Part shown: positions 5,501-58,495 of the stretch, piece after piece | How the letters are laid out: each line of letters starts with the position of its first letter | Numbering within the stretch: position 1 is the stretch's first letter | NCBI GenBank assembly: GCA_021604525.1 | Contig: BQJD01000004.1 | Coordinates: 124,001 to 188,000, forward strand | From: a marine bacterium B5-7 | Lineage (GTDB): Bacteria > Pseudomonadota > Gammaproteobacteria > Arenicellales > CAJQKF01 | Length of the DNA stretch: 64,000 bases | Reading direction: 5' to 3' | Program-made: the position numbers and the translations under genes | The notes under the pieces: model-generated | What the model saw: the letters and a program-made list of their open reading frames with translations, nothing else | Databases searched by the model: none | Told to the model about the DNA's origin: nothing

Positions 5501-5603
5501 ATCCTCTCTCACCATATCCCTCAAAAAACAAGCATTTAAACGTATACTGTCCCCACTAGGGCTAACTACTTGAAACCGTATTTCTGGTTGTCAGGTAGCC
5601 AAT

Positions 5604-5792
5604 AGGTAGCCAAAAGGCATTCTCATAATCGGTGATGTCGTGAGGACGCTGAAGGACTTGTTCGTGAAGTACGGTCGTCCTGGCTGTCTTCGCAGTGATT
5701 ATGGGACGGATACTGCGGCAAGCGAAGACACAATTAGGCGCGAGATCAATTGCCAATACCAAATCCGAAAAACATTGACTCTGTCTGATTAA
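5604..5792 (+). pseudogene. probable transposase (DDE/rve type) relic
   Basis: No intact gene lies in the 540 bases between tRNA-Met (5500) and 6041. The frame ending at TAA 5790-5792 reads GDVVRTLKDLFVKYGRP and then LRSDYGTD, which resembles the integrase-core block of IS3/IS481-type transposases (typically LRSDNGPEF). There is no start codon, N-terminal helix-turn-helix or terminal inverted repeat, so it would be a small remnant. A 10-bp direct repeat AGGTAGCCAA occurs at 5593-5602 and 5604-5613. The minus strand of 5598-5615 also matches part of the methyltransferase at 36879 (one mismatch in 18 nt), so the assignment is ambiguous. 5793-6040 is A+T-rich and shows nothing else. Confidence 0.4.
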
Positions 5793-6040
5793 ATACTTTT
5801 ACGGATTAAAATATAAAATTGGAACTTGGTCTGACGATTTCGGCTATTCGGTTTAGATAAAATTTGAAAATGTCCGGTTTATACTTCATTGCTGACACTA
5901 GTGGAATCCGCCATGAGCCCATATTATCAATCCTCTTTCAATGCACAGCCTGTACTACATTGACTGTCATTTTCTTCGCGTGACACGCACGACCATGTTG
6001 ACGTTTTATTGCTTGACGTAGCCATTCCCCCCCTCTAATT

Positions 6041-6904: not shown

Positions 6905-6931
6905 GTCGAATAGCGGCTCAGATTAATCTAA

Positions 6932-7641: not shown

Positions 7642-7825
7642 TTATTCCGAAGCTTTTCTAGAGAATTTTCTAATGTAAATGTCAGCAATGAGCAAGGAGC
7701 CGCCGCAAGGGTTAGAAATCTCGATCCGTCGGAATCATACTCACAGCAGATGTATTCGTTACTAGTTGGAGTGCTCACAACCAGTAAATTAGTGTTGATG
7801 GTCCTCGGCTTATCGGAGTTGATCT

Positions 7826-8647
7826 ATGCCCAATAAAGTACAAAATCATTATAGCAGTAGGGTTGATCTAGCGCTTGAAATAGAAAGGAAGCTAGAAGCA
7901 GCGGGAAAGTATCCAGACAATCTCAAAGCTATCGATTTGTCGACCGTTGACGAATTCCACATCAGGGGTCGAAAGGCTACACTGGAATTGGGTCGCCGCA
8001 TGAATCTGGATAGTGGTTCGAGCGTTCTGGACATTGGCAGTGGGCTCGGTGGGCCCGCCCGAACGATCGCTGAAGAATATGGCTGCCTCGTTACCGGTAT
8101 AGATTTGACCCAGGCGTTTTGTGATGCTGCAAACCAAATGTCCAAGTGGGTAAATCTGGACGACAAAGTTACCTTTCAGCAGGGTGATGCAACAGATCTA
8201 CCATTTGAAGACCATCAATTCGATGCAGCAATGACGGTCCATGTGGCAATGAATATACCTGCTAAAGATAAAGTCTATTCCGAAGCCAAGAGAGTCATCA
8301 AGTCTGGTGGCGTCTTTGTAGTCTATGATGTACTCAAAGGTGAAGGTGATGATCTACTGTTCCCTGTTCCCTGGGCCAGGGAACCTTCTATTAGCTATTT
8401 GGAGACCTCAGAAGGGATGGAGAACCTACTTACGAAGGCGGGTTTTCAGATTGTTCAAATCGATGACTCAACCGAGGAGAGCCATGAGTGGTTCGAGGCG
8501 ATGTTGGACCGACTATCGAAGTCAGGGCCTCCGTCAGTCTCATTTCAAGCATTCTTGGGGGATGAATATCCCGACATGGTTCGGAACCAGGTGCGTAATC
8601 TAGCGGAGAGGCGGATCAGGACCGTAACTTTTGTCTGCGCGGCTTGA
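7826..8647 (+). CDS. class I SAM-dependent methyltransferase
   Basis: Cytoplasmic methyltransferase of 273 aa. SAM-binding motif I is VLDIGSGLGGPARTIAEEYG (about residues 68-87), followed by the acidic residue in VTGIDLT and by FQQGDATDLPF. This layout is typical of small-molecule methyltransferases of the sarcosine/dimethylglycine and sterol/UbiE-like groups; the substrate cannot be told from sequence. GGAG lies about 9 nt before the ATG. It stands alone after the ChaC pseudogene, at the end of the accessory stretch. The 184 bases before it (7642-7825) show nothing convincing. Confidence 0.85.
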   Translation: MPNKVQNHYSSRVDLALEIERKLEAAGKYPDNLKAIDLSTVDEFHIRGRKATLELGRRMNLDSGSSVLDIGSGLGGPARTIAEEYGCLVTGIDLTQAFCDAANQMSKWVNLDDKVTFQQGDATDLPFEDHQFDAAMTVHVAMNIPAKDKVYSEAKRVIKSGGVFVVYDVLKGEGDDLLFPVPWAREPSISYLETSEGMENLLTKAGFQIVQIDDSTEESHEWFEAMLDRLSKSGPPSVSFQAFLGDEYPDMVRNQVRNLAERRIRTVTFVCAA

Positions 8648-8838
8648 GCCAAAGACCGCTTGGGGCAAATAACAGTCATTGTCACTAGGCAACTGTTCGA
8701 TTTGGTTAAACCCGGTTACCAGTATTTGTCAGATCAGATAACGCATTTACACATAAGCAACCAATAATAACTAGCCTAGTGACCGATCCGAAAATCGGTG
8801 CGACTGTATGGGTGCAGGTATCACCATTTCCCGTTGAT

Positions 8839-42050: not shown

Positions 42051-43550
42051 ATGATTATCGATCAGCAGCAGTTTGATCAGTATAAAGCCCAGGGGTACAA
42101 CAGGATTCCAGTGGTGCGTGAAGTGCTCGCCGATCTGGATACGCCGGTCAGCACCTATCTGAAGCTCGCCAACGGCCCGTATTCCTACCTGTTCGAGTCT
42201 GTGCAGGGTGGTGAGAAATGGGGTCGGTATTCCATTATCGGACTGCCCTGTGAGACGCGTATACGCGTTAACAAAAACTCGTTTCGAATCGAGCGCAACG
42301 ACGAGATCATTCTCGACAAGACCACGGATGACCCGCTGGCTGAGATAACCGCGCTGCGGCGTCAGTTCAAGGTGCCGGCAATCCCGGGTATCCCGCGCTT
42401 CGTTGGCGGTCTGGTTGGGTACTTCGGTTATGACACGGTTCGCTACATCGAAACGCAACTGGGCGATAGCGACAAGCATGATCCCATCGGTGCGGCGGAT
42501 ATATTGCTGATGCTGTCCGAGGAGGTAGTGGTATTCGACACCCTGCGTGGGCGGCTGTATGTCATCGTTCATGCCGATACCGAGAATGACGATGCCTTCG
42601 AGCGTGCGACTGAACGGGTCAACGACATCATCGATCAACTTGGCGCGGCATTCGAGGCACCCAAGCGAGTCAACGCAGGTCCTGCTGTGGATGAGTCCGA
42701 GTTTATATCCTCCATGGGTCGCGAGGACTTCGAGGACGCGGTCGAACGTTGCCGTGAATATATTCACAACGGCGACATCTTCCAGGTAGTGTTATCGCAG
42801 CGGTTGAGCGTTCCATTCAAGGCGCCACCACTCGATTTATATCGTGCCCTGCGCACGGTTAATCCATCGCCGTATATGTACTATCTCAATCTCGGCGATA
42901 TTCACGTAGCGGGTTCATCACCAGAAATACTGGTGAGGCTGGAAAATAATGAAGTCACGGTGCGGCCGATTGCCGGTACCCGCCGGCGCGGTTACGATGA
43001 GGCTGAAGACCTTCGCATGGTGCAAGATCTGATGTCCGACCCCAAGGAACTGGCGGAACATCTGATGCTGGTAGATCTTGGACGCAATGACGTCGGTCGG
43101 GTCGCCGAGATTGGTACCGTTAAATTAACCGAGAAAATGCAAGTCGAGAAATATTCTCATGTCATGCATATCGTCTCAAACGTCACTGGCAAACTTGCGC
43201 CAGGACTCGATGCCAGTGACGTATTGCGAGCATGTTTTCCGGCAGGCACGGTGTCCGGTGCGCCCAAGGTGCGGGCCATGGAAATTATCGACGAGTTCGA
43301 ACCGCAAAAAAGGGGAATCTACTCGGGTGCTGTGGGTTACATCGGATGGAACGGTAACATGGATACTGCCATCGCCATACGTACCGCGGTCATCAAGGAC
43401 GGCATACTGCATATTCAGGCGGGTGCGGGGATTGTCGCGGATTCGGTGCCGAGCCTCGAATGGGCAGAAACCATGAACAAGGGGCGCGCCGTATTCAAGG
43501 CAGTGTCCATGGCCTGTACCGGATTGGATGGTGCAGGGGTGGAATTTTAA
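42051..43550 (+). CDS. trpE: anthranilate synthase component I
   Basis: Converts chorismate to anthranilate with TrpG (499 aa). The N-terminal regulatory region contains [15 protein letters not shown] (the Trp-binding ESV-like site reads [13 protein letters not shown]). The chorismate-binding part shows [50 protein letters not shown] and [19 protein letters not shown]. It is part of rpe-gph-trpE; its partner trpG is 13.6 kb away, beyond the catabolic cluster. Confidence 0.97.
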
Positions 43551-44426: not shown

Positions 44427-44450
44427 GTGATCATCAGGACGCTTCAATGA
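44427..44450 (+). other. possible leader peptide overlapping the lacI start
   Basis: AGGAGG at 44411-44416 stands 10 nt before a GTG (44427) that opens a seven-codon frame, MIIRTLQ, whose TGA (44448-44450) overlaps the regulator's ATG (44447) in ATGA style. It could couple translation of the regulator. The regulator also has its own AGGA at 44436-44439, so the small frame may be chance. Confidence 0.3.
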
Positions 44451-45490
44451 AGCGGCTTAACGAAGATGCGGTTCGACGCATGCCAAGCCAGGCCGATATC
44501 GCGGCAGCGGCACGCGTGTCCACAGCAACCGTGTCACGCGTGGTCAATAATTCCAAGCTGGTCAGGCCAGAAGTGCGTGATCGGGTGCGTGCCGAAATGG
44601 AGCGCCTGGGCTACTTTACCCATGGTGCAGCCCGCGCACTCGCATACAACAAATCCTGGACCATTGGCGCCGTTATACCAACCCTTAACAGCGATTTATT
44701 CGCTCGTAGTATTGATGCGCTGATGAGACGCCTGCGGGAGATGGATTATTCCCTGATGGTGGTATCGTCTGACTATTCACTCGATGACGAAACATTCTTA
44801 ATTAAACGTCTGCTTGAGCGAGGCGTGGATGGGATATTTCTGGTGGGTGGGGAACGACTACCGCAGAGTCAGAAGCTGCTTAAACTATCCCATCGTCCGT
44901 ATATTGAATCCTATATAACAGATGTTCCCGGCAATAAGCGCGCCATTGGTTTCAATAATGCGAAAGCCTGCTCCGCCCTTGTGGAACACCTCGTTGAGCT
45001 TGGCCATCGCCGCATCGGTATGCTCGCCGGAATCACTCGCTACAACGACCGTGCCCGTAAACGCCTGGAGGGATTTCGGCAGTCGATGAGCCTTCACGGG
45101 TTACCTGTTGCGGATCATCATGTCAGGGAAGTCAATTACGATATCGATGAAGCACGCCGGGAATTCTCGCTGTTTCTTGAAGATAACGATCCGCCGACGG
45201 CGCTGGTATGCGGGAATGATCTGATCGCCATGGGAGCGCTGATCGAAGCCAATGCCCGCGGCATTGATATTCCCCGATGCATGTCGATTGTGGGAATCGA
45301 TAATCACCCGTTGTCACGACATTCGAATCCACCGCTTACCACCATAGATATTCCCGCAATCCAGATCGGCATCCGTTCGGCCGAAGCATTGGTTGCTGCA
45401 ATCGAAACCGGTGCTCCGGTCAATCGGCACGATCTTGAGGCGCCACTGATTATTCGCGAAACGACATCGTCACCGGCATCAAGTCAGTGA
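44447..45490 (+). CDS. LacI-family transcriptional regulator
   Basis: Repressor of 347 aa. The N-terminal LacI helix-turn-helix (about residues 14-35) reads SQADIAAAARVSTATVSRVV, followed by the hinge helix around residues 48-65, and a periplasmic-binding-protein-like effector domain (ALAYNKSWTIGAVIPTL to the C-terminus). The tandem operators upstream imply autoregulation. The TRAP transporter follows in the same direction, so it probably controls the cluster in response to the substrate or an intermediate. Confidence 0.93.
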   Translation: MKRLNEDAVRRMPSQADIAAAARVSTATVSRVVNNSKLVRPEVRDRVRAEMERLGYFTHGAARALAYNKSWTIGAVIPTLNSDLFARSIDALMRRLREMDYSLMVVSSDYSLDDETFLIKRLLERGVDGIFLVGGERLPQSQKLLKLSHRPYIESYITDVPGNKRAIGFNNAKACSALVEHLVELGHRRIGMLAGITRYNDRARKRLEGFRQSMSLHGLPVADHHVREVNYDIDEARREFSLFLEDNDPPTALVCGNDLIAMGALIEANARGIDIPRCMSIVGIDNHPLSRHSNPPLTTIDIPAIQIGIRSAEALVAAIETGAPVNRHDLEAPLIIRETTSSPASSQ

Positions 45491-45532
45491 GGCAACTAAA
45501 TGAAGTATTTTGAACAGACAGTTTTACTACAC

Positions 45533-45564
45533 GAAATTTACAAGAGTTGAAATTTACAAGAGTT
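45533..45564. repeat. exact tandem repeat of 16 bp upstream of the TRAP genes
   Basis: GAAATTTACAAGAGTT occurs twice back to back at 45533-45548 and 45549-45564, in the 252-base spacer between the regulator gene and the TRAP binding-protein gene. It may be a pair of direct-repeat binding sites or a replication-slippage duplication. No gene lies in the spacer. Confidence 0.8.
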
Positions 45565-45742
45565 ATGGGTTTTAAGAGATGTTTTATTTGCAGGTTTTAG
45601 AAAGTCCCGACACGGCATTGCCGTGGTGTTCTGTTGACCGCAAGTTGTAAACAGGAACTGCCTGCACGTAGTTGAAGGAATACCCTTTAGTTACGTTTTG
45701 GGATACGTACAAGCCAACCACACAGCGAACGAGGAGTTCAGC

Positions 45743-46927
45743 ATGAAACTTAAAATTGATTGGAAATCGAAGGATGCAAAAGAGGTAAAGGAAGTCGAGA
45801 ACGAAAAGCGTCGTCGCTTTTTCGAGTTGTCCGGCAAGTATGGATTCACTGCCGCACTGGCCGCTGCAGGCGCCGGTACATTGCTTAGTCCGGAAGCTTC
45901 CGCGCAAACCGCACGCGATGAGAAAGAACGTGAGGATGCGGCAAAATACCAGGCGATTATCGCAACCGCTTATCGACTCGAACAGCAGATCGGTCTTCCC
46001 TACGCTGTATCCGAAACCAAGAACAATATTCAAAACATGACCAACGGCAAGGTATATGTAAAGGTTGCCGCGAACAAGGTATTAGGCGGCGGTACCGAGC
46101 TTGCCAAGAAAACCCAAGCCAACACTATCCAGATTGGTCAGCATTCGATTTCCAACCTCGCACCTTATGCCAAGGAAGTCGATCTTATCAACCTGCCATA
46201 CTGGTGCGCCGATAATCAGCAGTTCAACAACCTGGTGCATTCCGATGCGTGGAAGGACCTCGTTGAAAAACCGGCTGCTGAAAATGGTTACAAAATATTC
46301 TCCTACCTGACATTCGATCCGCGTACTACCTCTGTCGGCGCCAAGTTCGATGAACCGATTCGCGTGCCGAGCGACCTCAAGGGCGTGAAGTTCCGCGTTC
46401 CAGGTTCGAAGATACTGGCGCAGCTTTATACACTTCTCGGTGCCAACCCGACTCCGATTGCATGGGGCGAAACGGCGCCTGCAATCAAGTCCGGCGTGGC
46501 TGATGCACTTGACCCATCCATCGAAGGACTCTGGGTGTTCGGATTTGGTGACATCCTCAACTGGGTAACCTTTTCAGCGCCGGTTCCTGACGGCAATGTG
46601 CTGACCATGTCCAAGACCTGGTTTGACAGCCTCGATTCGGAAACTCAGGAGCAGATCGACTTCGCTGCTGATGTCACTACCCGTCAACAGCTCGCCAGCG
46701 TGCCGGCCGCTCGTGCCTATGTCATGGCCGATATGGCTAAGGCGGGTGTGCAGTACTACGTGCCTACGGCTGATGAACGTGCACAGTGGGTGGAAGCCGC
46801 TGGTCATCAACGAAGCGAATGGGATCCGTTCAAGGTGGAATTGGCTGGCTCGAAGAAAAACTTTGATCGGTTGGTGGAAGCTGCGAATACATTCGCCGGG
46901 TATTACGTACACGATCTGAAGGCGTAA
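45743..46927 (+). CDS. TRAP transporter substrate-binding protein, DctP family
   Basis: Periplasmic receptor of a tripartite ATP-independent transporter (about 394 aa). ATG 45743 follows GAGGAG by 6 nt; an earlier in-frame ATG (45698) is rejected. The N-terminus has a charged region, then a twin-arginine-type motif KRRRFFEL (about 22-29), a hydrophobic stretch and ASA cleavage site (52-54), so export by Tat is likely. The mature part has the DctP fold, with SVGAKFDEPIRVPSDLKGVK and FRVPGSKILAQLY containing the conserved Arg that binds ligand carboxylate or other anions. The ligand is unknown. A strong hairpin separates it from the permease genes. Confidence 0.92.
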   Translation: MKLKIDWKSKDAKEVKEVENEKRRRFFELSGKYGFTAALAAAGAGTLLSPEASAQTARDEKEREDAAKYQAIIATAYRLEQQIGLPYAVSETKNNIQNMTNGKVYVKVAANKVLGGGTELAKKTQANTIQIGQHSISNLAPYAKEVDLINLPYWCADNQQFNNLVHSDAWKDLVEKPAAENGYKIFSYLTFDPRTTSVGAKFDEPIRVPSDLKGVKFRVPGSKILAQLYTLLGANPTPIAWGETAPAIKSGVADALDPSIEGLWVFGFGDILNWVTFSAPVPDGNVLTMSKTWFDSLDSETQEQIDFAADVTTRQQLASVPAARAYVMADMAKAGVQYYVPTADERAQWVEAAGHQRSEWDPFKVELAGSKKNFDRLVEAANTFAGYYVHDLKA

Positions 46928-46936
46928 CTTAATCTG

Positions 46937-46964
46937 GCCGGATCGCGGGTAACCGCGATCCGGC
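46937..46964 (+). terminator. attenuator-like hairpin between binding protein and permeases
   Basis: A perfect 12-bp stem, GCCGGATCGCGG (46937-46948) with CCGCGATCCGGC (46953-46964), closes a GTAA tetraloop (GNRA type) and is followed by ATTGTTTTTG. It is a good intrinsic terminator, 10 nt after the binding-protein stop. Partial read-through would give much more binding protein than permease, as expected for TRAP systems; it would also protect the upstream mRNA 3' end. Confidence 0.75.
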
Positions 46965-46996
46965 ATTGTTTTTGAATCGACATCGGTACGCAACCC

Positions 46997-47509
46997 ATGA
47001 AACTGATCCGATTTCTGGATAAGAACGGCGAGAAGATTCTTTCCCTGTGGCTGTATCTTTTTATCGTCGTGGTTATCTTCAATGAAGTACTAAGACGGTT
47101 TGTGCTGTCTTACTCCTCTCTTTGGGGTGAGGAAACAGCACGTTATTCATTTATCTATATGGTCTGGATCGGCGCTTCAATGGCGGTCAAGGATCGATTG
47201 CACATACGCATATCGATCATTATCGACCACTTCGGTAATCGCATGCAGAATTTCTTCAGCGCGCTGGCATCGTTGCTTGGTGTTGCTCTGGCTGTCATTG
47301 CATTCCGCTATTCCATGGAGCCATTTCTGTTGTCGATAAAGTACCAGTCCGTCACTGATGGTCTGCGAATTGTTCAGGCCTGGTATTTGTTTGCTGTACC
47401 GTTCGGATTCACGTTGATCACCATACGGTTATGCCAGGCGTTGATGGAGGATGTTCACCGCATGGTGCGCAACCAGCCGCCGAAACTTCGTGAAAAACTG
47501 TTTTCGTAG
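46997..47509 (+). CDS. TRAP transporter small permease, DctQ family
   Basis: Four-helix inner-membrane subunit of 170 aa. Helices lie near residues 15-35, 48-65, 87-107 and 129-149; LSYSSLWGEETARYSFIYMV is the conserved DctQ block around helix 2. It docks onto the large permease encoded 8 nt downstream. GTG for the DctM gene lies just after GGAGG. Confidence 0.93.
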   Translation: MKLIRFLDKNGEKILSLWLYLFIVVVIFNEVLRRFVLSYSSLWGEETARYSFIYMVWIGASMAVKDRLHIRISIIIDHFGNRMQNFFSALASLLGVALAVIAFRYSMEPFLLSIKYQSVTDGLRIVQAWYLFAVPFGFTLITIRLCQALMEDVHRMVRNQPPKLREKLFS

Positions 47510-47517
47510 GAGGTACC

Positions 47518-48828
47518 GTGTACCAGTACGCCAGCACTTATTCCGAATATGCATTGACACCAGAGATCATCATGTCCCTGATTGGGCTGGTGGTTATGTT
47601 TCTGTTGGGCATACCCATCTGGATATCGCTTGGGATATCCGCATTTGCACTTTTATATTTTTCGCAGGTTATACCGTTAAGCCTGATCGGTGAGAGTCTG
47701 TTTGCAGGACTCGATGCCTTTCCGTTGATCGCTGTTCCGTTGTTTATACTGACGGGCGATGCACTGGTCAGAACAGGGTTATCCAATAAGCTTCTTGATG
47801 TTGCAGAAGCTCTGATGGGGTGGGTTCAAAGTGGTTTTGGTAGCTCGACCGTGCTTGGCTGCGGGTTCTTTTCCTGTATTTCCGGATCCGATGCGGCAGG
47901 TGCCGCCGCCATGGGACGCATCGCTACTGGCCGACTGGTTGAGAAAGGTTATCCATTGCCTTACGCCGCGGCACTGGTGGCCTCTGGTTCATGTACCGGG
48001 ATACTGATACCGCCGTCGATCGGCTACATCATTATCGGCCTGGTACTCGGTATCTCTGCGTCGACGTTGTTCATCGCCGCAATTATTCCAGGCGTACTGG
48101 TATTGATATCGATTATGGTCGCCAATGTGACGATGAATCGAATCATGGGTTATGAGGAAAGCACGCAGAAGTTCAGCGCTCGCCATCTTGCACTGACTGT
48201 TTACGATGCAAAATATGCGTTATTGATTCCGTTTCTGATTCTGGGTGGAATTTATTCCGGCATCTTTACGCCGACAGAGGCGGCAGGTGTCGCGGTGGTA
48301 TTGATCATTACCATTGGGCTTACGAAAAAGACGATAACCTGGAGCGATGTTCCAGACATGTTGTTGTCATCGGTGAAAGTAAACGGCGTTATTGTGCCAA
48401 TTATCGCTTTGTCACTTCCCATGGCTCAGGCGTTGTCATTGCTGCAAATTCCACAGACTCTGGTTGCAGATCTGACATCAATATCAGATAGCCCGGTATT
48501 CATTATCGGAATCATGATTGTTATCTTCATGATGGCCGGCGCCTTCATGGAAGCGACACCGAACATAGTAATTTTCGGTCCTTTGCTATTGCCGCTGGCT
48601 CTTCAGATTGGCATGAACGAAATTCACTTCTCGATATTCATGCTGACCACTTTGGGTCTTGGGTTCATTACACCGCCACTTGGTCTGAATCTTTTCGTGC
48701 TGTCAGCGATAACCGGGGCATCGTCCATGAGCATTTCCTATCGAGCCATCCCTTTCATGGTAAGTATGCTATTGGTGGCGATCATGATTGCCGCTTTTCC
48801 TCAGTTATCGTTGTTCTTTCTTAATTAG
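47518..48828 (+). CDS. TRAP transporter large permease, DctM family
   Basis: Ion-coupled transport subunit of 436 aa with about twelve membrane helices. Family blocks are FPLIAVPLFILTGDALVRTG, GCGFFSCISGSDAAGAAAMG, CTGILIPPSIGYIIIG and GIYSGIFTPTEAAGVAVV; FITPPLGLNLFVLSAITG is the C-terminal half-repeat. The start is GTG 47518 after GGAGGT. It completes a full TRAP system with the two preceding genes. A hairpin follows. Confidence 0.95.
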   Translation: MYQYASTYSEYALTPEIIMSLIGLVVMFLLGIPIWISLGISAFALLYFSQVIPLSLIGESLFAGLDAFPLIAVPLFILTGDALVRTGLSNKLLDVAEALMGWVQSGFGSSTVLGCGFFSCISGSDAAGAAAMGRIATGRLVEKGYPLPYAAALVASGSCTGILIPPSIGYIIIGLVLGISASTLFIAAIIPGVLVLISIMVANVTMNRIMGYEESTQKFSARHLALTVYDAKYALLIPFLILGGIYSGIFTPTEAAGVAVVLIITIGLTKKTITWSDVPDMLLSSVKVNGVIVPIIALSLPMAQALSLLQIPQTLVADLTSISDSPVFIIGIMIVIFMMAGAFMEATPNIVIFGPLLLPLALQIGMNEIHFSIFMLTTLGLGFITPPLGLNLFVLSAITGASSMSISYRAIPFMVSMLLVAIMIAAFPQLSLFFLN

Positions 48829-48852
48829 TTGGTTAAACAATTTTCTGGCATT

Positions 48853-48884
48853 CCGCCATGCCTCGTCTCTTGATGGCATGGCGG
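48853..48884 (+). terminator. hairpin after the TRAP permease genes
   Basis: CCGCCATGCC (48853-48862) pairs with GGCATGGCGG (48875-48884) around a 12-base loop and is followed by TTGTCTTG. It is a plausible terminator for the TRAP transcript. A possible new promoter, TTGATC (48890-48895) and GATAAA (48914-48919) 18 nt apart, lies before the E1 gene, so the enzyme genes may form a second transcript. Confidence 0.6.
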
Positions 48885-48939
48885 TTGTCTTGATCTGACA
48901 TAGATCGGTTTTCGATAAATCCTTGACTACATACCTGAC

Positions 48940-51108
48940 ATGTTGACCAAACCTTTACATACAGAAACACCCTGGCTTCGAATCGAAGTTGACGAAAGTG
49001 ATCGCGCCCTCATTGGATCAGCGACCTGTCGAAAGATGCTTGAACAGATGTTGATCATCCGAACATTTGAAGAGAAGCTGCTTGAGATGGCAAAAGAGGG
49101 CATTCTTCATGGACCCGCACATTCGAGCATCGGCCAGGAAGCCGTTGCGGTAGGTTGCATGTTGTCGCTTGGGTCATCTGACAAGATCAACGGCACTCAC
49201 AGAATGCACCACCAGTTTCTTGCCAAGGTGCTTAACCACGTTACCGCAAAAGACTACGATCCGGCTACGGATGAATTCAGTCCCGAAATGCAGGATGTGG
49301 TCATGCGTACCCTTGCGGAAATACTGGGTTTGTCGCCTGGGTTTACGGGTGGTCGGGGTGGCTCCATGCACTTGAAATGGGATGCCTGCGGGGTATTCGG
49401 TTCTAATGCGATTGTTGGTGGAAATCCGCCTCATGCGGTGGGATACGCCATGGCAGAAAAACTTCGTGGCAGTAATAATATTGCCGTAACGTTTTTCGGT
49501 GATGGCGCCATACAAAACGGCTCGTCTTACGAGTCGATGAATCTTGCTGCACTATACAACCTGCCGGTCGTATTCGTTTGCGAAAATAATCTCTATGCGG
49601 TTTCAACGCATGTTCGTGAACAAACACGTGAGCAACGTTTGTCTGCCCGTGGGTTAGGATTGGGTGTGCCTGGACTTGAAGTCGATGGCATGAACCCGGT
49701 AGCGATGCATGCGGCCATGTCCTGGGCGAAAGATCAGATCAGCAATAAAGCTGGACCCGTTTTAATCGAGGCGCTTACCTATCGATTTTTTCATCAGTCG
49801 GGTCCACTGACAGGAAGTGCATTCGGTTATCGGGATAAAGACGAGGAACAGCAATGGAACGATCGCGATCCTTTGAAAAACTTTCCTGAAACGCTGGTAG
49901 ATTCTGGTGTTATTGACGAAGGGGATGTGGCCCGCTATCGGCAACGTGCTGCCGATATTGTTGACACTGCGATATCCGCATTGGTTGAAGACGCTGCCGA
50001 TACAAAATCGCGCAGGATCATTCCTTCGCTGTGGCCGTCGAAGGATACTGTCGAGCATGGCATTCGAGGTGATCTTGAAGAACTCTCGAATGTATCGGTG
50101 CGTGAGGTCGAGGACACCGATCCCAAGCAGACGAAGACGATGAAATATATCGAAGCCGTATCTCTGGCCGCACGTAACGCGATGGAGCACGATGATTCGA
50201 TTATCATTTTAGGTGAAGATGTTCACCGGCTTCGCGGGGGTACTTCCGGTGCTACCCGTGGCATTGCCGAGAAGTTTCCGGATCGATTGATTGCTACTCC
50301 CATCTGTGAAAATGGTTTTACCGGATTGGGTGTTGGTGCGGCCCTCAACGGCCTGCGGCCGATTGTTGAGATCATGTATCCCGATTTCGCACTGGTAGCG
50401 GCTGATCAGTTGTTCAATCAGGCCGGCAAAGTGCGTCACATGTTCGGTGGCGACCATCCGCTACCGTTGGTGGTTCGTAGCAGAGTGTCTGCTGGAACGG
50501 GCTACGGTTCGCAGCATTCCATGGACTCGCTTGGTTTGTTTGCCTTGTATCCCGGTTGGCGAATCGTCGCGCCTTCGACTCCATACGATTACGTCGGTCT
50601 GTTTAATGCGGCCATTCGCTGTAATGACCCGGTTCTTGTTATCGAGTATCAGAACCTGTTCCAGAATACCGGGCCGGTACCTGTTGATGATCTTGACTAT
50701 ATTATTCCCTTTGGCAGCGCCAAGGTGGTTCGTGAGGGTAGCGATTGCACGGTACTTACCTATGCCGGCGTACTCCCCATGACGCTTGAAGCGATTGAAT
50801 CAAGTGGTGTCGACGCTGAAGTTATAGATCTTCGCACACTCGATCCCATGGGCATTGATTGGCAAACCATTGGTGCGAGTATTCGCAAAACCAATCGATT
50901 GGTCGTTTCCGAACAGACCACTCGTGGCACCTCACTTGGCGCGCATATCGTCAAGGCGGTACAGGAACAATTTTTCGATTGGCTTGATGCCGAGATCGTT
51001 CACGTATCCGGTGCTCATTCATCGCCTGTGGTTTCAAAAGTTCTCGAACAAGCAGCGCTTGCCGGTCCAGCGGAGATTGTCGTTGGATTGAAGCAGGTGA
51101 TGCTGTAA
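48940..51108 (+). CDS. fused alpha-beta E1 of a thiamine-dependent 2-oxoacid/acetoin-type dehydrogenase
   Basis: 722-residue fusion of both E1 chains. Residues about 25-345 are the alpha part with the ThDP motif starting FFGDGAIQNGSSYESMNL and ending in VCENN; residues about 400-722 are the beta part, with IILGEDVHRLRGG, CENGFTGLGVGAALNGLRPI and a C-terminal transketolase-like domain. Such E1s decarboxylate a 2-oxoacid or cleave a diketone/acyloin and pass the acyl unit to lipoyl-E2. The matching E2 is encoded four genes downstream. Most acetoin or branched-chain E1s are two polypeptides; here they are joined. No E3 lies in the cluster. The true substrate is unknown. Confidence 0.88.
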   Translation: MLTKPLHTETPWLRIEVDESDRALIGSATCRKMLEQMLIIRTFEEKLLEMAKEGILHGPAHSSIGQEAVAVGCMLSLGSSDKINGTHRMHHQFLAKVLNHVTAKDYDPATDEFSPEMQDVVMRTLAEILGLSPGFTGGRGGSMHLKWDACGVFGSNAIVGGNPPHAVGYAMAEKLRGSNNIAVTFFGDGAIQNGSSYESMNLAALYNLPVVFVCENNLYAVSTHVREQTREQRLSARGLGLGVPGLEVDGMNPVAMHAAMSWAKDQISNKAGPVLIEALTYRFFHQSGPLTGSAFGYRDKDEEQQWNDRDPLKNFPETLVDSGVIDEGDVARYRQRAADIVDTAISALVEDAADTKSRRIIPSLWPSKDTVEHGIRGDLEELSNVSVREVEDTDPKQTKTMKYIEAVSLAARNAMEHDDSIIILGEDVHRLRGGTSGATRGIAEKFPDRLIATPICENGFTGLGVGAALNGLRPIVEIMYPDFALVAADQLFNQAGKVRHMFGGDHPLPLVVRSRVSAGTGYGSQHSMDSLGLFALYPGWRIVAPSTPYDYVGLFNAAIRCNDPVLVIEYQNLFQNTGPVPVDDLDYIIPFGSAKVVREGSDCTVLTYAGVLPMTLEAIESSGVDAEVIDLRTLDPMGIDWQTIGASIRKTNRLVVSEQTTRGTSLGAHIVKAVQEQFFDWLDAEIVHVSGAHSSPVVSKVLEQAALAGPAEIVVGLKQVML

Positions 51109-51138
51109 CGAACCCTTTTATTTGAATGAGGAATTAAT

Positions 51139-51603
51139 GTGAGTTCAACAAACTCTGCGCTGCTCGATGACCTCATCGTCCGACCGCACCACACGGCGCT
51201 GTGTATAGAGAACTTCGATGCGGCACAATCATTTTTTTGTGACGTCCTCGGTATGCGTGTAGAAAACGAAGCCGATCAACGGGACGAAGAAGGTCTTGGT
51301 ATCGTCACCGGATTGCCCGGTGCGGTTGTACGCTGGGCAATGTTGGAACGTAACGGATATCGGTTGGAATTATTCAAGTACTACCAACCCGAAGGACGTA
51401 CCGTAAATATCCGCCAATGCGATCGGGGGCTGACTCACATTGCTTTTGAAGTATCCGATGTCGACGATGCATGCTGGCGGGTTCGAAATGCAGGTCACGA
51501 GACTTACTCGGATCCGCAGAATTTGCGTGGCGGTGCAACACGACCTGTCTATGTTAAAGGTCCTGAAGGCATCGTGGTTGAACTCATCGAGTTTCGACAA
51601 TGA
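51139..51603 (+). CDS. VOC-superfamily epimerase/glyoxalase-like protein
   Basis: 154-aa VOC protein with both metal-ligand pairs visible: His in RPHHTALCIENF, Glu in RLELFKYY, His in GLTHIAFEV and Glu in GIVVELIEF. The His-Glu-His-Glu set resembles methylmalonyl-CoA epimerase and glyoxalase I rather than extradiol dioxygenases. An epimerase or isomerase of a 2-hydroxy or 2-oxo intermediate would fit the cluster. Its stop overlaps the SDR start (ATGA), showing translational coupling. Confidence 0.85.
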   Translation: MSSTNSALLDDLIVRPHHTALCIENFDAAQSFFCDVLGMRVENEADQRDEEGLGIVTGLPGAVVRWAMLERNGYRLELFKYYQPEGRTVNIRQCDRGLTHIAFEVSDVDDACWRVRNAGHETYSDPQNLRGGATRPVYVKGPEGIVVELIEFRQ

Positions 51604-52382
51604 GCACCGCAGAATTTGCCGGGCGGCGTGTGATCATTACCGGTGGCGCCAGTGGTATCGGTGCCGCTGTCGCTAAACGTCTTGTAAGTCACGGTGCTTA
51701 CGTTTATCTCCTGGATGTGAATGCGACGGGTGTCGAATCCACCGCTACTGCGTTCGGTGATCAGGCAGGTTTCGGAGTATGCAATGTAACCAGTGAGGAT
51801 GACTTTATTCGAGTCTTCAAAGAAGTACGCGGTGAAGGCATTATCGATGGATTGGTGTGTTGTGCGGGTTGTCCCGATTTGCCTGTCCCCGCTGAGAATT
51901 ATTCTCTCGATAACTTTAACCGTGTAATCGATTCACACCTGAATGGAACATTTATCGCCTGTCGGACTGTCGGTGCATCGATGATCGAAGATGGCGGTGG
52001 TGCCATCGTTAATATTGCATCGGTACTATCGTTTAACTCGGGCCCGGTCATGGGTTACGCTGCCGCCAAGGCGGCGATAGTCAATTTAACGTCCTCGTTT
52101 GCGGTGCAATGGGCTGCCCGTAACGTTCGCGTTAATGCAGTGGCGCCGGGCTGGACCGATACGCCTTTTCTAAAGCCGAAGGAACGAAACGGAGAACGTG
52201 ATTTCACGCCAATAAAACAAGCAACACCGCTTGGCCGGTTATTGTCGCCGAGTGAGATAGCCGAGGTGATTGCATTCCTGCTTTCACCAAAATCAAGTGC
52301 CATTGTCGGCACCACAGTGGCTTGTGATGGCGGTGTGATTGCCGGCGCCGGGTGGCCTCCTTATGGTGGTATACCCGCCTGA
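51600..52382 (+). CDS. short-chain dehydrogenase/reductase
   Basis: Classical SDR of 260 aa. The cofactor motif is VIITGGASGIGAAVAKRL with an acidic residue in LLDVN (NAD preference), the NAG motif reads CCAGCPD, the catalytic Ser is in NIASVLSF and the Tyr-x-x-x-Lys is GYAAAKAA. It probably oxidises a secondary alcohol of the pathway to a ketone. It overlaps the VOC gene by 4 nt and precedes the beta-hydroxyacid dehydrogenase by 49 nt. Confidence 0.93.
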   Translation: MSTAEFAGRRVIITGGASGIGAAVAKRLVSHGAYVYLLDVNATGVESTATAFGDQAGFGVCNVTSEDDFIRVFKEVRGEGIIDGLVCCAGCPDLPVPAENYSLDNFNRVIDSHLNGTFIACRTVGASMIEDGGGAIVNIASVLSFNSGPVMGYAAAKAAIVNLTSSFAVQWAARNVRVNAVAPGWTDTPFLKPKERNGERDFTPIKQATPLGRLLSPSEIAEVIAFLLSPKSSAIVGTTVACDGGVIAGAGWPPYGGIPA

Positions 52383-52431
52383 TCGTCATTGGGTTCGTAG
52401 CACCTTATTAAAAGCCAGGGGTAATTGATAA

Positions 52432-53337
52432 ATGTTGAATGTAGGCTTCATTGGGCTGGGTGTCATGGGCTCACCTATGGCTCGACACATCGCCGAGGCG
52501 GGACATTCACTTCGCGTCTACGATATCGACTCAAACATTCGGCAGACTTTCGCTAATCTTACTAACTGCACTGTTGCTGCAACACCGGCGCAGGCGGCTG
52601 ACGATGTTGATTATCTGATTACCATGCTTCCGGAAACCAAACACGTAGTTGACGTTCTGTTTGGCGAAGATGGCGCGGTAGAGCACCTTGCCGATAACGC
52701 GCTCGTGATTGAAATGAGTACCGGTGATGCCACCGCAACACCGGACATCGCCGGGCGATTGCGTCGCAAAGGTTTTCGCATGATCGACGTGCCGGTCGGT
52801 CGAACTCCGGTAGACGCTCACGCCGGTACGCTTCTGGCGCTGGTGGGAGCCGAGCCCGCAGAGCTTGAAGAGGTCAAACCGCTCTTACTTTGTTTCTGTG
52901 ATGAGATCGTTCATGCAGGCCCGCCCGGAAGCGGGATAAAGCTCAAGCTGGTTAATAACTATATGACCATGATCGGCATGGTGATGACGTCGGAAACCCT
53001 GATGCTGGCCGAGAAAGTCGGACTCGATCGGGATACGGTTGTTCATGTACTGCAGAACACGGTGGCAGGACGAGGCCAGATTAACGTTAATTTTCCACGT
53101 AAAGTGCTTGCCGGCGATATCACACCGGATTTTCCATTGCGTCTCGGTTTGAAAGACCTGTCGCTGGCCCTTGATCTGGCACGTTCTGTCGGCGCGCCGC
53201 TGATGCTCGGTGGTGTTTCCCGGGAACTTTTTTCCCTGGCCCGTTCCCTGGGACGCGAAAACCAGGATTGCACAGCCATGCTGTTGTTGCTTGAAGACCT
53301 GGCCCGTTGTCAAACGGGCTCTGCCGATAACGGCTGA
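52432..53337 (+). CDS. beta-hydroxyacid dehydrogenase, sulfolactaldehyde-reductase-like
   Basis: HIBADH-family NAD(P) oxidoreductase of 301 aa. The Rossmann motif is VGFIGLGVMGSPMARHI with an Asp in VYDIDSN (NADH preference). The substrate loop reads DVPVGRTPVDAHAGTL where most family members have PVSGG. This matches E. coli YihU, whose Arg123, Asn174 and Ser178 bind the sulfonate and whose Lys171 is catalytic; here the equivalents are Arg124, Asn175, Thr179 and Lys172 in KLVNNYMT. It may act on sulfolactaldehyde/DHPS or a similar anion. Family is sure, the substrate is inference. Confidence 0.9.
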   Translation: MLNVGFIGLGVMGSPMARHIAEAGHSLRVYDIDSNIRQTFANLTNCTVAATPAQAADDVDYLITMLPETKHVVDVLFGEDGAVEHLADNALVIEMSTGDATATPDIAGRLRRKGFRMIDVPVGRTPVDAHAGTLLALVGAEPAELEEVKPLLLCFCDEIVHAGPPGSGIKLKLVNNYMTMIGMVMTSETLMLAEKVGLDRDTVVHVLQNTVAGRGQINVNFPRKVLAGDITPDFPLRLGLKDLSLALDLARSVGAPLMLGGVSRELFSLARSLGRENQDCTAMLLLLEDLARCQTGSADNG

Positions 53338-53383
53338 TTCGTCCAATCAATACTCCACTGATTACCACTATCACTGATTACGT

Positions 53384-54721
53384 ATGAGTTACCAAACAGA
53401 ATTTCTACTACCAAGCCTCGGCGATGGCGATGGCGGCGGCCGACTGATCAACTGGCTTAAACAACCTGGAGAGTCTTTCAGTAAAAACGATACTTTGCTT
53501 GAAGTTGAAACCGACAAGGCGGTGGTTGAAGTACCTGCCAGCGAAGATGGCGTGCTACTGGAACAACTTGTCGAAATCGATGCACTGATCGAGCTTGGTG
53601 AGCGGGTTGCCCGTGTTGAATACCAGGGCGAAGCGCCACAGGTGCTGGAAACCTCATCAGTCGATGACGAGTCCGAAGAATCATCAACCGAGTCCACATC
53701 CACGCAATCGGGTGATACCCAAACTCGCGATACATCAAATGATACTGCATCGGTGCGAAACGACGCAGAGCGTGTTTTTGCAACTCCCTTTGCACGCAAG
53801 GTTGCCAGAGAGAACGGTATAGATCTTGCCTCACTAAAAGGGTCCGGTAAGAACGGACGTATTGTGGGGAGCGACGTCGAGCGTGCCGATAGCTCGCCGG
53901 GCAGTCGTCCGAGTACAGGGTCCATGGAGTTTCGTGAGCGGATGATTGCTGTTCACAATGCGGAGATGTTTGTTAAATCCTGGATGCCCGTGAATCCACG
54001 ATCCGGTTCCACTGTTGTGCTGATACATGGCCTGTTCGCTGACAGTGATGCGTGGACAGCTAATGCGTCGGTGCTGGCACGAAACGATATTCCCGTCATG
54101 GCGATCGATCTGCCATGCCATGGTCGTACCACGTTAGATGTCGAAACATTTGACGACGTGGTTCTAGCGGTAGTTGAGGCAGTCGAATTGCTGGTCGACG
54201 GGCCGGTCACATTGATTGGACACTCTTTTGGGGCGGCTGTCGCGGCCCGTGCTGCCCGCTCGCCCAATCTCGAATTGAATGCTCTCGGGTTGATTGCGCC
54301 ATTGGGGTTGGGTACACACATCAATCAATCATTTATCGATGGGATGACGGGTGCCAGAACCCTTGACGCACTTCGTCGTGAAATGCGTAAGCTCACCCTG
54401 AGCGGACAACCGGTTGGCGAAGCATTCCTTGTAGCTCTGAAGAATCAACTGATGAGTCGTGCACAGGCTCTCACGGCACTGTGTCGTTCGGTTGCCATAA
54501 ATGGCGTGCAGCAAGTGGACATTGTCAGTGATCTCGATGAGATTGGCCAATTGGCGAGCATCATTCATGGACGTTGCGACGAAATTATTCCATGGCAGCA
54601 GGTACTGGTGGCACCGCCAAGGGTTGCGCTTCACCTGGTGCCCAATGCCGGTCATATGCCGCAATGGGAATCAAGCAAACTGGTCACTGACCTGTTGGTA
54701 GCCAGTACGGCATCGAGATAA
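53384..54721 (+). CDS. lipoyl-PSBD-alpha/beta-hydrolase protein (AcoC-like E2)
   Basis: 445-aa E2-like protein. An N-terminal lipoyl domain (about 1-80) has the lipoylation site Lys45 in VETDKAVVEV; an acidic Ser/Thr-rich linker follows; a peripheral-subunit-binding domain (about 129-165) contains FATPFARKVARENGI and GKNGRIVGSDVE. The C-terminus (from about 205) is an alpha/beta hydrolase with VVLIHGLFADSDAW, nucleophile Ser281 (GHSFGAA), Asp399 (HGRCDEI) and His424 (NAGHMPQ). There is no acyltransferase HxxxDG domain. This plan matches AcoC of acetoin dehydrogenase systems. It would receive the acyl unit from the fused E1. Confidence 0.9.
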   Translation: MSYQTEFLLPSLGDGDGGGRLINWLKQPGESFSKNDTLLEVETDKAVVEVPASEDGVLLEQLVEIDALIELGERVARVEYQGEAPQVLETSSVDDESEESSTESTSTQSGDTQTRDTSNDTASVRNDAERVFATPFARKVARENGIDLASLKGSGKNGRIVGSDVERADSSPGSRPSTGSMEFRERMIAVHNAEMFVKSWMPVNPRSGSTVVLIHGLFADSDAWTANASVLARNDIPVMAIDLPCHGRTTLDVETFDDVVLAVVEAVELLVDGPVTLIGHSFGAAVAARAARSPNLELNALGLIAPLGLGTHINQSFIDGMTGARTLDALRREMRKLTLSGQPVGEAFLVALKNQLMSRAQALTALCRSVAINGVQQVDIVSDLDEIGQLASIIHGRCDEIIPWQQVLVAPPRVALHLVPNAGHMPQWESSKLVTDLLVASTASR

Positions 54722-55102: not shown

Positions 55103-56332
55103 GTGGCAGATAAACAAACTATCAATGCCGGGATTTGTATCGCAGGTGGTGGCCCGGCGGGAATGGTTCTTGGCTATTTGCTGGCTCGTTCCGGTGCTGA
55201 TGTTGTGGTGTTGGAAAAACATTCGGATTTTCTTCGGGATTTTCGAGGCGATACGGTGCATCCGTCGACTTTGCAGGTATTGCAGGAATGTGGATTGCTT
55301 GAAACCTTTGATCGCATACCCCAGCAAAAAGTACAGCACCTGACTGTCCGCATTGGATCCGATGTCCAGTCTGTAATCGATTTCCAGGGCCTGAAGCCGT
55401 TTAACTATCTCGCCTTCGTGCCACAGTGGGACTTTCTCGACATGCTTGCTGACGAATGCGGGCAGTACCATAATTTTACGCTCCTCATGGAGCATGAAGT
55501 CACCGATCTGATTGTCGACAACAATCGGGTAAAAGGTGTCAAGGCGGCCCACCCAACCGGCGTCCTTTCTGTATATGCCAACCTGGTTGTCGGTTGTGAT
55601 GGGCGGGACTCGGTGGTAAGGCGGTGTACCGGCCTGAAAGTAATCGACCTGGGTGCGCCAATGGATGCATTGTGGTTCAAGCTCCCGCGCACGCCTGATG
55701 ATCTGGATGACACCTTTGCGATTCTGGGCGCGGGTAATATGATGGTGTTGTTGAACAGGAACGAATATTGGCAAGTGGCTTACGTCGTCCCGAAAGGAAG
55801 TGATTCAAGCCTCCGTGAACGATCCATTGCCGAATTTCGTGATTCAATTGTCAGTCTCGCACCGTTCCTTGAAAAGGATGCGGGGTCACTTGAATCCTGG
55901 GATGAGGTCAAGACCCTCGTGGTTAAAGTAAACCGGCTGAAACAATGGTGCAAAGAAGGGGTGTTGTTAATCGGCGATGCCGCACACGCCATGTCGCCAA
56001 TTGGCGGCGTGGGCATCAATCTGGCAGTACAAGATGCGGTCGCCGCTGCAAATATCATTGCCGGTGCGATGAAACAGGGGGCGCCTATTGATGTGAAGTT
56101 GCTTCGTCAGGTTCAGGGTCGTCGTGAAATGCCGACGAAACTGATCCAGTGGATGCAAACTACCCTTCAAAAACGCGTGGTGTCGAATACCCTCGAGAAA
56201 GTGAATCGGCCACCCGAAATACCTGCCGTGTTACGTTGGTTACTGCATTTCCGGTGGATCAGAAACATACCGGCCAGGATAATCGGCTATGGTTTTCGCC
56301 GTGAGCATGCGAATGTTAAAAACTTCCTCTGA
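55103..56332 (+). CDS. FAD-dependent aromatic-hydroxylase-type monooxygenase
   Basis: Group A flavin monooxygenase of 409 aa (PHBH/UbiH fold). The FAD dinucleotide motif is ICIAGGGPAGMVLGYLL, the Asp-Gly motif is VVGCDGRDSVVRR, and the second FAD motif is LLIGDAAHAMSPIGGVGINL. The start is GTG 55103. Enzymes of this type hydroxylate aromatic or enol substrates with NAD(P)H and O2. It is the next-to-last gene of the cluster and may perform an optional oxidation or belong to a separate small unit with the cupin gene 45 nt downstream. Confidence 0.88.
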   Translation: MADKQTINAGICIAGGGPAGMVLGYLLARSGADVVVLEKHSDFLRDFRGDTVHPSTLQVLQECGLLETFDRIPQQKVQHLTVRIGSDVQSVIDFQGLKPFNYLAFVPQWDFLDMLADECGQYHNFTLLMEHEVTDLIVDNNRVKGVKAAHPTGVLSVYANLVVGCDGRDSVVRRCTGLKVIDLGAPMDALWFKLPRTPDDLDDTFAILGAGNMMVLLNRNEYWQVAYVVPKGSDSSLRERSIAEFRDSIVSLAPFLEKDAGSLESWDEVKTLVVKVNRLKQWCKEGVLLIGDAAHAMSPIGGVGINLAVQDAVAAANIIAGAMKQGAPIDVKLLRQVQGRREMPTKLIQWMQTTLQKRVVSNTLEKVNRPPEIPAVLRWLLHFRWIRNIPARIIGYGFRREHANVKNFL

Positions 56333-56377: not shown

Positions 56378-56770
56378 ATGAATCTGGATAACACGTTTGC
56401 TGTATTAAAACCGGATCTGTCTGTTGAACCGGTGGTAGTTTCACCAACAATTTATGCGGACCTGGATGCGAACTTCGATCATTTCAAATCACATGTGCTT
56501 GTCTCTACACATGAGTTCGATTCTGATTGGGGAATGTGGGAAAAACATCCCGCCGGGGATGAAATCGTCATGCTCTTGTCAGGATCGGCGCAAATGGTGC
56601 TGGAAACCGATTCGGGTAGTGAGGTCGTCAAGCTCGATACGCCCAACACCTATACGATAATTCCTCGCAATACCTGGCATACCGCGCGGGTCTCGGCGCC
56701 AACTCGAATGTTGTTCATCACGCCAGGGGACGGTACCGAACATCGGCCACTACGGCCGGGCACTGAATAA
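56378..56770 (+). CDS. cupin-domain protein
   Basis: Single-domain cupin of 130 aa: GMWEKHPAGDEIVMLLSG is cupin motif 1 (His and Glu metal ligands, although the usual second His is less clear) and IIPRNTWHTARV is motif 2. Such proteins bind a metal and act as isomerases, dioxygenases or sensors. It ends the catabolic cluster. Its role is unknown; an isomerase or a lactone/enol handling step after the monooxygenase is one possibility. Confidence 0.8.
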   Translation: MNLDNTFAVLKPDLSVEPVVVSPTIYADLDANFDHFKSHVLVSTHEFDSDWGMWEKHPAGDEIVMLLSGSAQMVLETDSGSEVVKLDTPNTYTIIPRNTWHTARVSAPTRMLFITPGDGTEHRPLRPGTE

Positions 56771-57122: not shown

Positions 57123-57686
57123 ATGCTGCTCATGATAGATAACTATGACTCGTTCACCTACAACCTGGTGCAGTACTTTGGAGAATTGGGTTCACAAGTC
57201 AATGTGTTTCGCAACGATCAGATCAGTATCGATGAAGTGGAGTCTCTGACTCCGGAACGGATTTGCATATCGCCTGGTCCTTGCACACCCAATGAGGCGG
57301 GCATTTCAGTGGATCTGGTTTCGCGGTTTGGTTCGCGAATACCGCTACTCGGCGTTTGCCTTGGCCACCAGAGCATCGCCCAGGCCTATGGCGGTGAAAT
57401 CGTCCGTGCCAGGACTTTGATGCATGGCAAGACATCGATGATTCATCATGATGGCAGCGGGGTTTTCAAAGGCCTGTCGAATCCCTTCCAGGCGACGCGC
57501 TATCACTCGTTAGTGGCAGATCGCGACGCACTGCCCGATTCACTCAAGATCAATGCCTGGACGGATGATGACGAGATTATGGGAATCCGGCATGAGGAGT
57601 TTCCGGTGCATGGCGTGCAGTTTCATCCCGAATCGATTCTCACTCAACACGGTCATACCCTTCTGAAGAACTTTCTGGAGATTTGA
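57123..57686 (+). CDS. trpG: anthranilate synthase component II (glutamine amidotransferase)
   Basis: Supplies ammonia to TrpE by hydrolysing glutamine (187 aa); in many bacteria it also serves PabB. The class I amidotransferase nucleophile Cys is in [15 protein letters not shown], and the His-Glu pair in [10 protein letters not shown]. The oxyanion motif [14 protein letters not shown] is present. trpC follows almost directly (GTG two bases after the TGA), with no trpD between them. Its partner trpE is 13.6 kb upstream. Confidence 0.96.
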
Positions 57687-57688
57687 TC

Positions 57689-58495
57689 GTGACACCTGTC
57701 GATACCCCCGACATCCTCGTCAGGATTCTTGAACACAAGCGTAGCGAAGTCGATGCGGCGCGGCGATTGGTGAGTGTGGATGAATTGCTTGCACAAATAA
57801 ACGACTTGCCACCCGCCAGAGGCTTTCATCGCGCACTTGATACACGGGTTGCCAGCGGTAAGGCAGCGGTCATTGCCGAGATTAAAAAAGCCTCTCCGAG
57901 CAAAGGGGTCATTCGTGACGATTTTGATCCGGTCAAGATTGCCGGGCAGTACGCCAAAGGTAGCGCGACCTGTCTGTCGGTGCTGACCGATGAGAAATAT
58001 TTTATGGGCTCGCCGCGTTATCTTGAGGCAGTCCGGGAGGCAGTCGATTTGCCTGTTTTGCGCAAGGACTTCATGATCGATCCATACCAGGTGATGGAAG
58101 CACGCACGCTGGGGGCGGACTGCATTTTACTGATTGTCGCGGCACTTGAAGATGCACTCATGGCTGATCTGGCAGCGCTTGCAGTGGAGCTAGGCATGGA
58201 TGTGCTGGTAGAGGTCCACGACATTGCCGAGTTGACCCGGGCACTTGAAATCGATTCACCATTGATTGGAATCAATAATCGCAATCTCAGGAATTTCGAG
58301 ACGCGACTTGAAACCACACTCGAGCTGTTGCCGGCGGTTCCAGCATCTCGCCTGGTCGTCACCGAAAGCGGCATACACAGCGGAGCAGACGTGCGATTGA
58401 TGCGGGAAAATGGGGTAAACTGTTTTCTCATCGGCGAGACATTCATGCGCGCTGATGACCCCGGCGTCGCCCTTGCGGACTTGTTCGCTGACTGA
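57689..58495 (+). CDS. trpC: indole-3-glycerol-phosphate synthase
   Basis: TIM-barrel enzyme of tryptophan synthesis (about 268 aa), converting CdRP to indole-3-glycerol phosphate. Key blocks are [20 protein letters not shown] (substrate-binding Lys), [25 protein letters not shown] (catalytic Lys), [11 protein letters not shown] and [15 protein letters not shown] 57689 has GGAG about 8 nt upstream; an in-frame TTG at 57683 overlaps the trpG stop. Coupled to trpG. Confidence 0.96.

Follow-up and report, generated by a model that had tools for sequence, protein, structure and literature searches.

Gene Organization of the Locus

The window, the whole 64,000-nucleotide stretch of DNA analyzed here, carries a gene cluster at 44447-54721 that lies on a single strand with short gaps between its genes. 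The order is a LacI-family regulator, a TRAP binding protein, two TRAP permeases, a fused E1, a VOC protein, an SDR, YihU-II, and an E2. The gene under study (52432-53337, + strand) has a 301-aa product, an NAD-dependent beta-hydroxyacid dehydrogenase that is a candidate DHPS/sulfolactaldehyde oxidoreductase with the residues R124, K172, and N175. We coined the name YihU-II for the sister family of YihU that contains this protein.

The first gene (44447-45490, +) encodes the regulator, which matched LacI-family models, all under their cut-offs. Related clusters likewise have LacI genes at their flanks, as do the hpsNOP genes of the same genome. It is followed by a DctP-type TRAP substrate-binding protein (45698-46927, +; PF03480), which matches PDB entry 24gc and is probably a DHPS receptor. 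A strong 12-bp hairpin followed by a T-rich stretch (46937-46964, +) separates this gene from that of the TRAP small permease. The hairpin, a consensus match only, is a possible partial terminator and may reduce downstream expression. The small permease (46997-47509, +) gave a weak match to the YiaM model, lies between the binding protein and the large permease, and is kept in related loci (L012, L017, L051, and L131). The large permease (47518-48828, +) matched TIGR00786 with 315 bits against a cut-off of 268.

The second half of the cluster encodes enzymes. The ThDP-dependent dehydrogenase (48940-51108, +) has E1 alpha and beta fused in one 722-aa chain (PF00676, PF02779, and PF02780). Separate alpha and beta subunits, as in acetoin dehydrogenase, were not found in the cluster, and the fused protein passed no curated cut-off. 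The E1 proteins of YihU-II clusters formed one group (support 96/94), apart from fused E1 proteins of about 50% identity that occur in other settings. The VOC-fold protein (51139-51603, +; PF00903) is a candidate isomerase or epimerase. Its metal-site pattern, H18/E77/H100/E148, was kept in an alignment of 9 homologues and is consistent with an enolizing isomerase or epimerase. A second oxidoreductase, the SDR dehydrogenase (51600-52382, +; PF13561), had only distant PDB matches. We rejected its assignment as HpsO since it is better matched (48% identity) by the SAR116 SDR that pairs with YihU-II.

The E2-like protein (53384-54721, +) combines a lipoyl domain (PF00364, K45), an E3-binding domain (PF02817), and an alpha/beta-hydrolase domain (PF12697), the last in place of the canonical acyltransferase and with S281 and H424 conserved. 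It passed no curated cut-off and fell just short of the acetoin-dehydrogenase E2 model PRK14875 (281.6 bits, cut-off 307), which its Roseovarius orthologue (L017) cleared with 341.8 bits. The E1, VOC, and YihU-II genes, together with TRAP and/or E2 genes, recur as a set in Burkholderiales, Alcaligenaceae, Rhodobacterales, and the window's own genus. One culturable bacterium with the cluster is Roseovarius halotolerans CECT 8110. The pairing of YihU-II with a metal-site VOC protein and a complex of fused E1 and acetoin-dehydrogenase-type E2 looks new, and a search of open-licence papers found no link between DHPS and acetoin dehydrogenase.

Just 3' of the cluster lie genes for an FAD-dependent monooxygenase-like protein (55103-56332) and a small cupin-like protein (56378-56770). 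They are separated from it by a 381-base gap and probably fall outside it. A trpE-like gene (42051-43550) and trpG-trpC-like genes (57123-58495) bracket the cluster and these neighbors, so that the usual single trp operon is split. The window's trpG and trpC have no apparent trpD-like gene between them.

Residues and Phylogeny of YihU-II

The YihU-II protein carries the Pfam pair NAD_binding_2 (PF03446) and NAD_binding_11 (PF14833), which places it in the beta-hydroxyacid dehydrogenase superfamily by domains and fold. It is about 43% identical to E. coli K-12 YihU (locus L061). The preliminary description had matched R124, K172, N175, and T179 to R123, K171, N174, and S178 of that enzyme, and in the alignment these residues paired exactly, one to one. 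We take R123 of E. coli YihU to be the arginine of the sulfonate loop and K171 and N174 to be the catalytic lysine and asparagine. Across 13 aligned relatives, G123, R124, T125, K172, N175, N176, Y177, and M178 were invariant. The Ser178 equivalent, Thr in the window protein, varies as Ser, Thr, or Ala across the YihU-II clade. GarR, GlxR, LtnD, and the paralogues L002-L004 of the window genome have PVSGG in place of PVGRT.

An arginine at the loop position also occurs in distant proteins with a GRL motif (L065, L066, L067, and L078) and in a very distant GRT protein (L035). The motif by itself is therefore not diagnostic of sulfonate binding, and we rejected it as a stand-alone signature. In these GRL and GRT dehydrogenases (the latter at 473-1369 of L035), SGG is replaced and the surroundings look non-sulfonate.

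Searches with the whole protein pointed to YihU. Among PDB sequences the top match was YihU 6sm7 (247.8 bits), and the next enzyme was tartronate semialdehyde reductase 1vpd (152 bits). The top NCBIfam model was sulfolactaldehyde 3-reductase YihU (NF012005/PRK15461) with 288.6 bits, below its curated equivalog cut-off of 348 bits. Because this curated score was missed, we treat the window protein as a member of a sister family and not as YihU proper. Its predicted structure (pLDDT 90.9) aligned with 1vpd at Z 36.0 over 290 residues at 1.9 Å and with YihU over only 224 residues at 4.8 Å, probably owing to a different domain arrangement. The model confirmed the fold, but it was dropped as a discriminator of substrates and is silent on this point, because many beta-hydroxyacid dehydrogenases superpose equally well.

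Phylogeny had been proposed as a check on the sulfonate reading, and a maximum-likelihood tree of 63 sequences was consistent with that reading. The window protein fell inside a 19-row clade with support of 100/100. The sister of this clade was a 13-row clade that holds E. coli YihU together with further YihU proteins of the sulfoglycolysis type, in which the window protein itself was not included. With support of 95/52 on the joining branch, this sister grouping is likely without being secure. Outside lay GarR, GlxR, LtnD, and the PVSGG paralogues from the window genome, and the window protein did not fall within any clade of proven non-sulfonate enzymes. YihU-II proteins from E1-containing clusters grouped in one subclade. 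The family is scarce: it was found in 3 of 109 genomes of the window's order, all from the window's own genus, and at high similarity in 2 of 198 genomes of a sampled Rhodobacterales-type family.

Genomic Evidence for DHPS as the Probable Substrate

The transporter provided evidence that is independent of the dehydrogenase. In the PDB, the binding protein matched 24gc, annotated as a dihydroxypropanesulfonate (DHPS) TRAP transporter, with 390.8 bits; the next match, an isethionate receptor, reached 75.6 bits. Identity to 24gc was 55% for the window protein and 59-60% for its counterparts in Roseovarius clusters. Sequence similarity of this kind makes the window protein a probable DHPS receptor.

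Gene neighborhoods in other genomes pointed the same way. The genes hpsN, hpsO, and hpsP adjoin YihU-II genes in at least four lineages; such neighborhoods were seen in SAR116, Pusillimonas, and Candidimonas as well as in the genus of the window. In Pusillimonas (L020), hpsN-hpsO-hpsP lie directly downstream of YihU-II. In SAR116 (L013 and L014), YihU-II is followed by hpsN, hpsO, hpsP, and SuyA/SuyB-like genes, and in L013 HpsN matched PDB 8v35 with 574 bits and HpsP matched 8wwd with 411 bits. In Candidimonas (L019 and L129), hpsN-hpsO and the E1/YihU-II cluster are separated by a few kb, and an ABC transporter also adjoins the cluster. In a genome of the window's genus (G023), the cluster and hpsNOP share one 36-kb contig. 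A relative of HpsN was present in 16 of the 17 genomes examined. The names HpsO, SlcC, SuyA, and TauE at these other loci denote similarity to reference proteins drawn from those loci. Absences in the comparison genomes are soft because many of these genomes are fragmented.

Several of these loci have features of their own. The SAR116 locus L013 (297-17293) is a compact C3-sulfonate locus with two YihU-type genes, a PhyH dioxygenase, TRAP genes, GMC and SDR genes, hpsNOP, and SuyAB-like genes. In a betaproteobacterium (L010, 12323-13069), a TauE/SafE-type exporter lies directly 3' of the cluster's E2 gene. YihU-II was also found in two settings with no DHPS genes nearby. In Polynucleobacter (L009, 7232-10888), genes for the large and swivel parts of aconitase X and a TctC receptor directly precede a YihU-II that is 61% identical, and the same contig carries slcC-comC-suyAB-xsc-like genes and sauS-sauT. 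In L011 (679-10909), YihU-II sits beside a sugar ABC transporter, an FGGY kinase, a class II aldolase, and a HAD phosphatase, a gene set that could encode a so far unrecognized sulfosugar pathway with 3-sulfolactaldehyde (SLA) as its end product.

The genomic context strongly supports a C3 sulfonate as the substrate of YihU-II, and DHPS is the most likely one. On this comparative evidence, we consider it highly probable that the enzyme acts on the DHPS/SLA pair. The C3-sulfonate pathway suggested in the preliminary description is thus supported by evidence independent of the motif: the tree, the 24gc-like binding protein, the hps neighbors, and lyases encoded elsewhere in the genome.

Desulfonation Genes Elsewhere in the Genome

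The window cluster lacks hpsN, hpsO, and hpsP. These genes were found at another site of the same genome (G000:C1), together with a paralogue of the LacI regulator (L127). The genome also has a suyA-suyB-slcC-comC-type operon (L055), in which the top NCBIfam model of the ComC-like protein was L-sulfolactate dehydrogenase, under its cut-off. It encodes Xsc as well, over the cut-off. The missing lyases therefore sit elsewhere in the genome, in line with the earlier remark that desulfonation would have to occur outside the cluster.

Xsc exceeded its cut-off in 14 of 16 carrier genomes, versus 27 of 398 genomes of the phylum. Within the window's order it was present in 82 of 109 genomes. Because Xsc is this common in the order, its occurrence in the window's genome lends the E1 step little support, and we set it aside as a strong pathway marker for this genome. 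The three Roseovarius carriers, all with Xsc, had no GD_AH_C (SuyB) protein. In three unrelated genomes, a pair of genes for a MoxR-like ATPase and a VWA-like protein lies beside xsc (L054, 9211-11885; L058, 12709-15418; and L111, 7051-9799).

Proposed Route and Alternatives

The best overall explanation, to which we assign a probability of roughly 0.7 on the comparative data, is that YihU-II interconverts DHPS and SLA with NAD(H) and feeds a route encoded by the operon. DHPS would be imported by the TRAP transporter. YihU-II would then oxidize its primary alcohol to SLA, the reverse of the E. coli YihU reaction, and this oxidative direction is the likely one in the present operon. By homology, R124 and N175 would hold the sulfonate, and K172 would serve as the general acid/base. 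The VOC protein may isomerize or epimerize the resulting hydroxy-carbonyl compound. The fused E1 and the acetoin-dehydrogenase-type E2 could split its C-C bond. The products would be sulfoacetaldehyde and a formyl unit or, after isomerization, sulfoacetyl-CoA and formaldehyde, and the C2 sulfonate would be desulfonated by Xsc. Such a route would run alongside hpsNOP and SuyAB.

The step from DHPS, a vicinal diol, to SLA, an alpha-hydroxy-aldehyde, resembles that from 2,3-butanediol to acetoin. Because SLA is an alpha-hydroxy-carbonyl like acetoin, a route from diol to acyloin to cleavage is chemically natural. By this analogy, C-C cleavage by the E1/E2 complex is conceivable but falls short of being probable. 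The full proposal is likewise tentative. It would be an undescribed DHPS pathway of the butanediol/acetoin type, in which a YihU-type dehydrogenase, a VOC protein, and a thiamine/lipoate complex convert C3 to C2 plus C1 and supply Xsc with sulfoacetaldehyde while bypassing sulfolactate, sulfopyruvate, and ComDE. The pattern of Xsc without SuyB in Roseovarius, combined with the lack of a match to sulfopyruvate decarboxylase alpha in the window's own genome, is supporting evidence for cleavage. YihU-II may serve S-DHPS, a role that we propose because DHPS from sulfoglycolysis is the S form and HpsN selects R-DHPS about a million-fold (PMC11382572).

The main rival leaves the role of YihU-II unchanged and takes E1/E2 as an ordinary 2-oxoacid dehydrogenase. 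DHPS would pass through sulfolactate to sulfopyruvate, which E1/E2 would decarboxylate oxidatively to sulfoacetyl-CoA and CO2, and SauS would then form sulfoacetaldehyde for Xsc. The domains of E1 are indeed those of 2-oxoacid dehydrogenases, the genome has a SauS relative (55%) and SlcC/ComC-like sulfolactate dehydrogenases, and the missing sulfopyruvate decarboxylase alpha match would fit here too. However, the operon has no aldehyde dehydrogenase for making sulfolactate, and the E2 hydrolase domain is of the acetoin-dehydrogenase type. In addition, a search for SauS found nothing in two fragmented genomes that have the E1 cluster (G506 and G508). The genome's own SauS lies in a different cluster with biotin-carboxylase-like and BKACE-like genes, and we rejected it as proof of a sulfoacetyl-CoA intermediate. 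Taken together, we regard this decarboxylating route as unlikely. The SauS cluster (L110, G000:C5:124000-143900) includes biotin-carboxylase-like, carboxyltransferase-like, and BKACE-like genes (5355-10484 and 18725-19444), with a TauE-like gene nearby. These gene names reflect sequence resemblance only. BKACE/SauS groups occur in L116 and L117 as well. Such a group might process sulfoacetone or a related sulfonate by way of sulfoacetyl-CoA.

Since the genome already has hpsNOP to cover DHPS, the operon may be redundant or may serve another sulfonate, such as a fragment of a sulfosugar, a hydroxysulfonate with a longer chain, or an ester of DHPS. YihU-II would then reduce released SLA to DHPS, as YihU does, or oxidize a different hydroxysulfonate. 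The sugar transporter, kinase, and aldolase beside YihU-II in L011 fit this explanation, and the 45% sequence difference between the binding protein and 24gc could alter the ligand. Nevertheless, that protein is by far nearest to a DHPS receptor and hpsNOP genes adjoin YihU-II in four lineages, which makes a different sulfonate improbable. A conventional beta-hydroxyacid dehydrogenase with a carboxylate substrate (tartronate semialdehyde, 3-hydroxyisobutyrate, or 4-hydroxybutyrate), whose arginine binds the carboxylate, would share the fold, the Pfam domains, and the arginine seen in GRL/GRT proteins, but it is very improbable given the sulfonate uptake gene, the hps neighbors, and the position of GarR, GlxR, and LtnD outside in the tree.

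Comparison with Known Systems

DHPS is an abundant sulfonate that bacteria receive from phytoplankton and from degraders of sulfolipid, and its known aerobic catabolism has so far been described via HpsNOP and sulfolactate. If oxidation of DHPS by YihU-II holds, a second dehydrogenase clade with a ThDP/lipoate complex would mean that surveys of hpsN overlook part of DHPS turnover. This gene set occurs in the gammaproteobacterium of the window, in Burkholderiales, in Rhodobacterales, and in other bacteria. Cleavage of C3 to C2 by the complex, if it takes place, would also explain how C3 sulfonates feed Xsc in genomes with no match to sulfopyruvate decarboxylase alpha.

E. coli YihU acts on a C3 sulfonate derived from plant and algal sulfolipid. 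It and YihU-II (PDB 6sm7 and 6smy for YihU) belong to sister clades and share the identical R, K, and N of the sulfonate loop and catalysis. They differ in that YihU has Ser178 where the window protein has Thr, that no sulfo-EMP genes surround the window gene, and that the window protein likely runs from DHPS to SLA. That direction is known from DhpA of Desulfovibrio sp. DF1, a COG2084 member like YihU, which converts DHPS to sulfolactaldehyde with NAD (PMC6278857). Compared by published description, DhpA and YihU-II share the COG2084 superfamily and the proposed reaction and direction, but DhpA is accompanied by SlaB and an ABC transporter and is only 27% identical to YihU (PMC6278857).

In Ruegeria pomeroyi, DHPS is taken up by the TRAP system HpsKLM (PMC10130141). 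HpsO and HpsP convert R- and S-DHPS to sulfolactaldehyde (PMC11131964). The HpsNOP systems of R. pomeroyi and Cupriavidus pinatubonensis (PMC11131964, PMC11382572) resemble the window in importing DHPS, by TRAP in R. pomeroyi, and in using dedicated dehydrogenases. They employ HpsN, HpsO, and HpsP with an aldehyde dehydrogenase, whereas the window operon encodes an enzyme of the YihU type along with a fused E1, a VOC protein, and an E2-hydrolase. Because DhpA, HpsKLM, and HpsNOP have already been described, the presence of YihU-II in an operon for DHPS would extend known chemistry. The remaining parallel is acetoin dehydrogenase of the AcoABC type, which likewise combines E1 with an E2 of lipoyl and alpha/beta-hydrolase domains. 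It acts on an alpha-hydroxy-carbonyl supplied by a preceding alcohol dehydrogenase, and the same arrangement is proposed here. The window complex departs from it in its fused E1, in an E2 just under the cut-off, and in its proposed substrate, a sulfonate.
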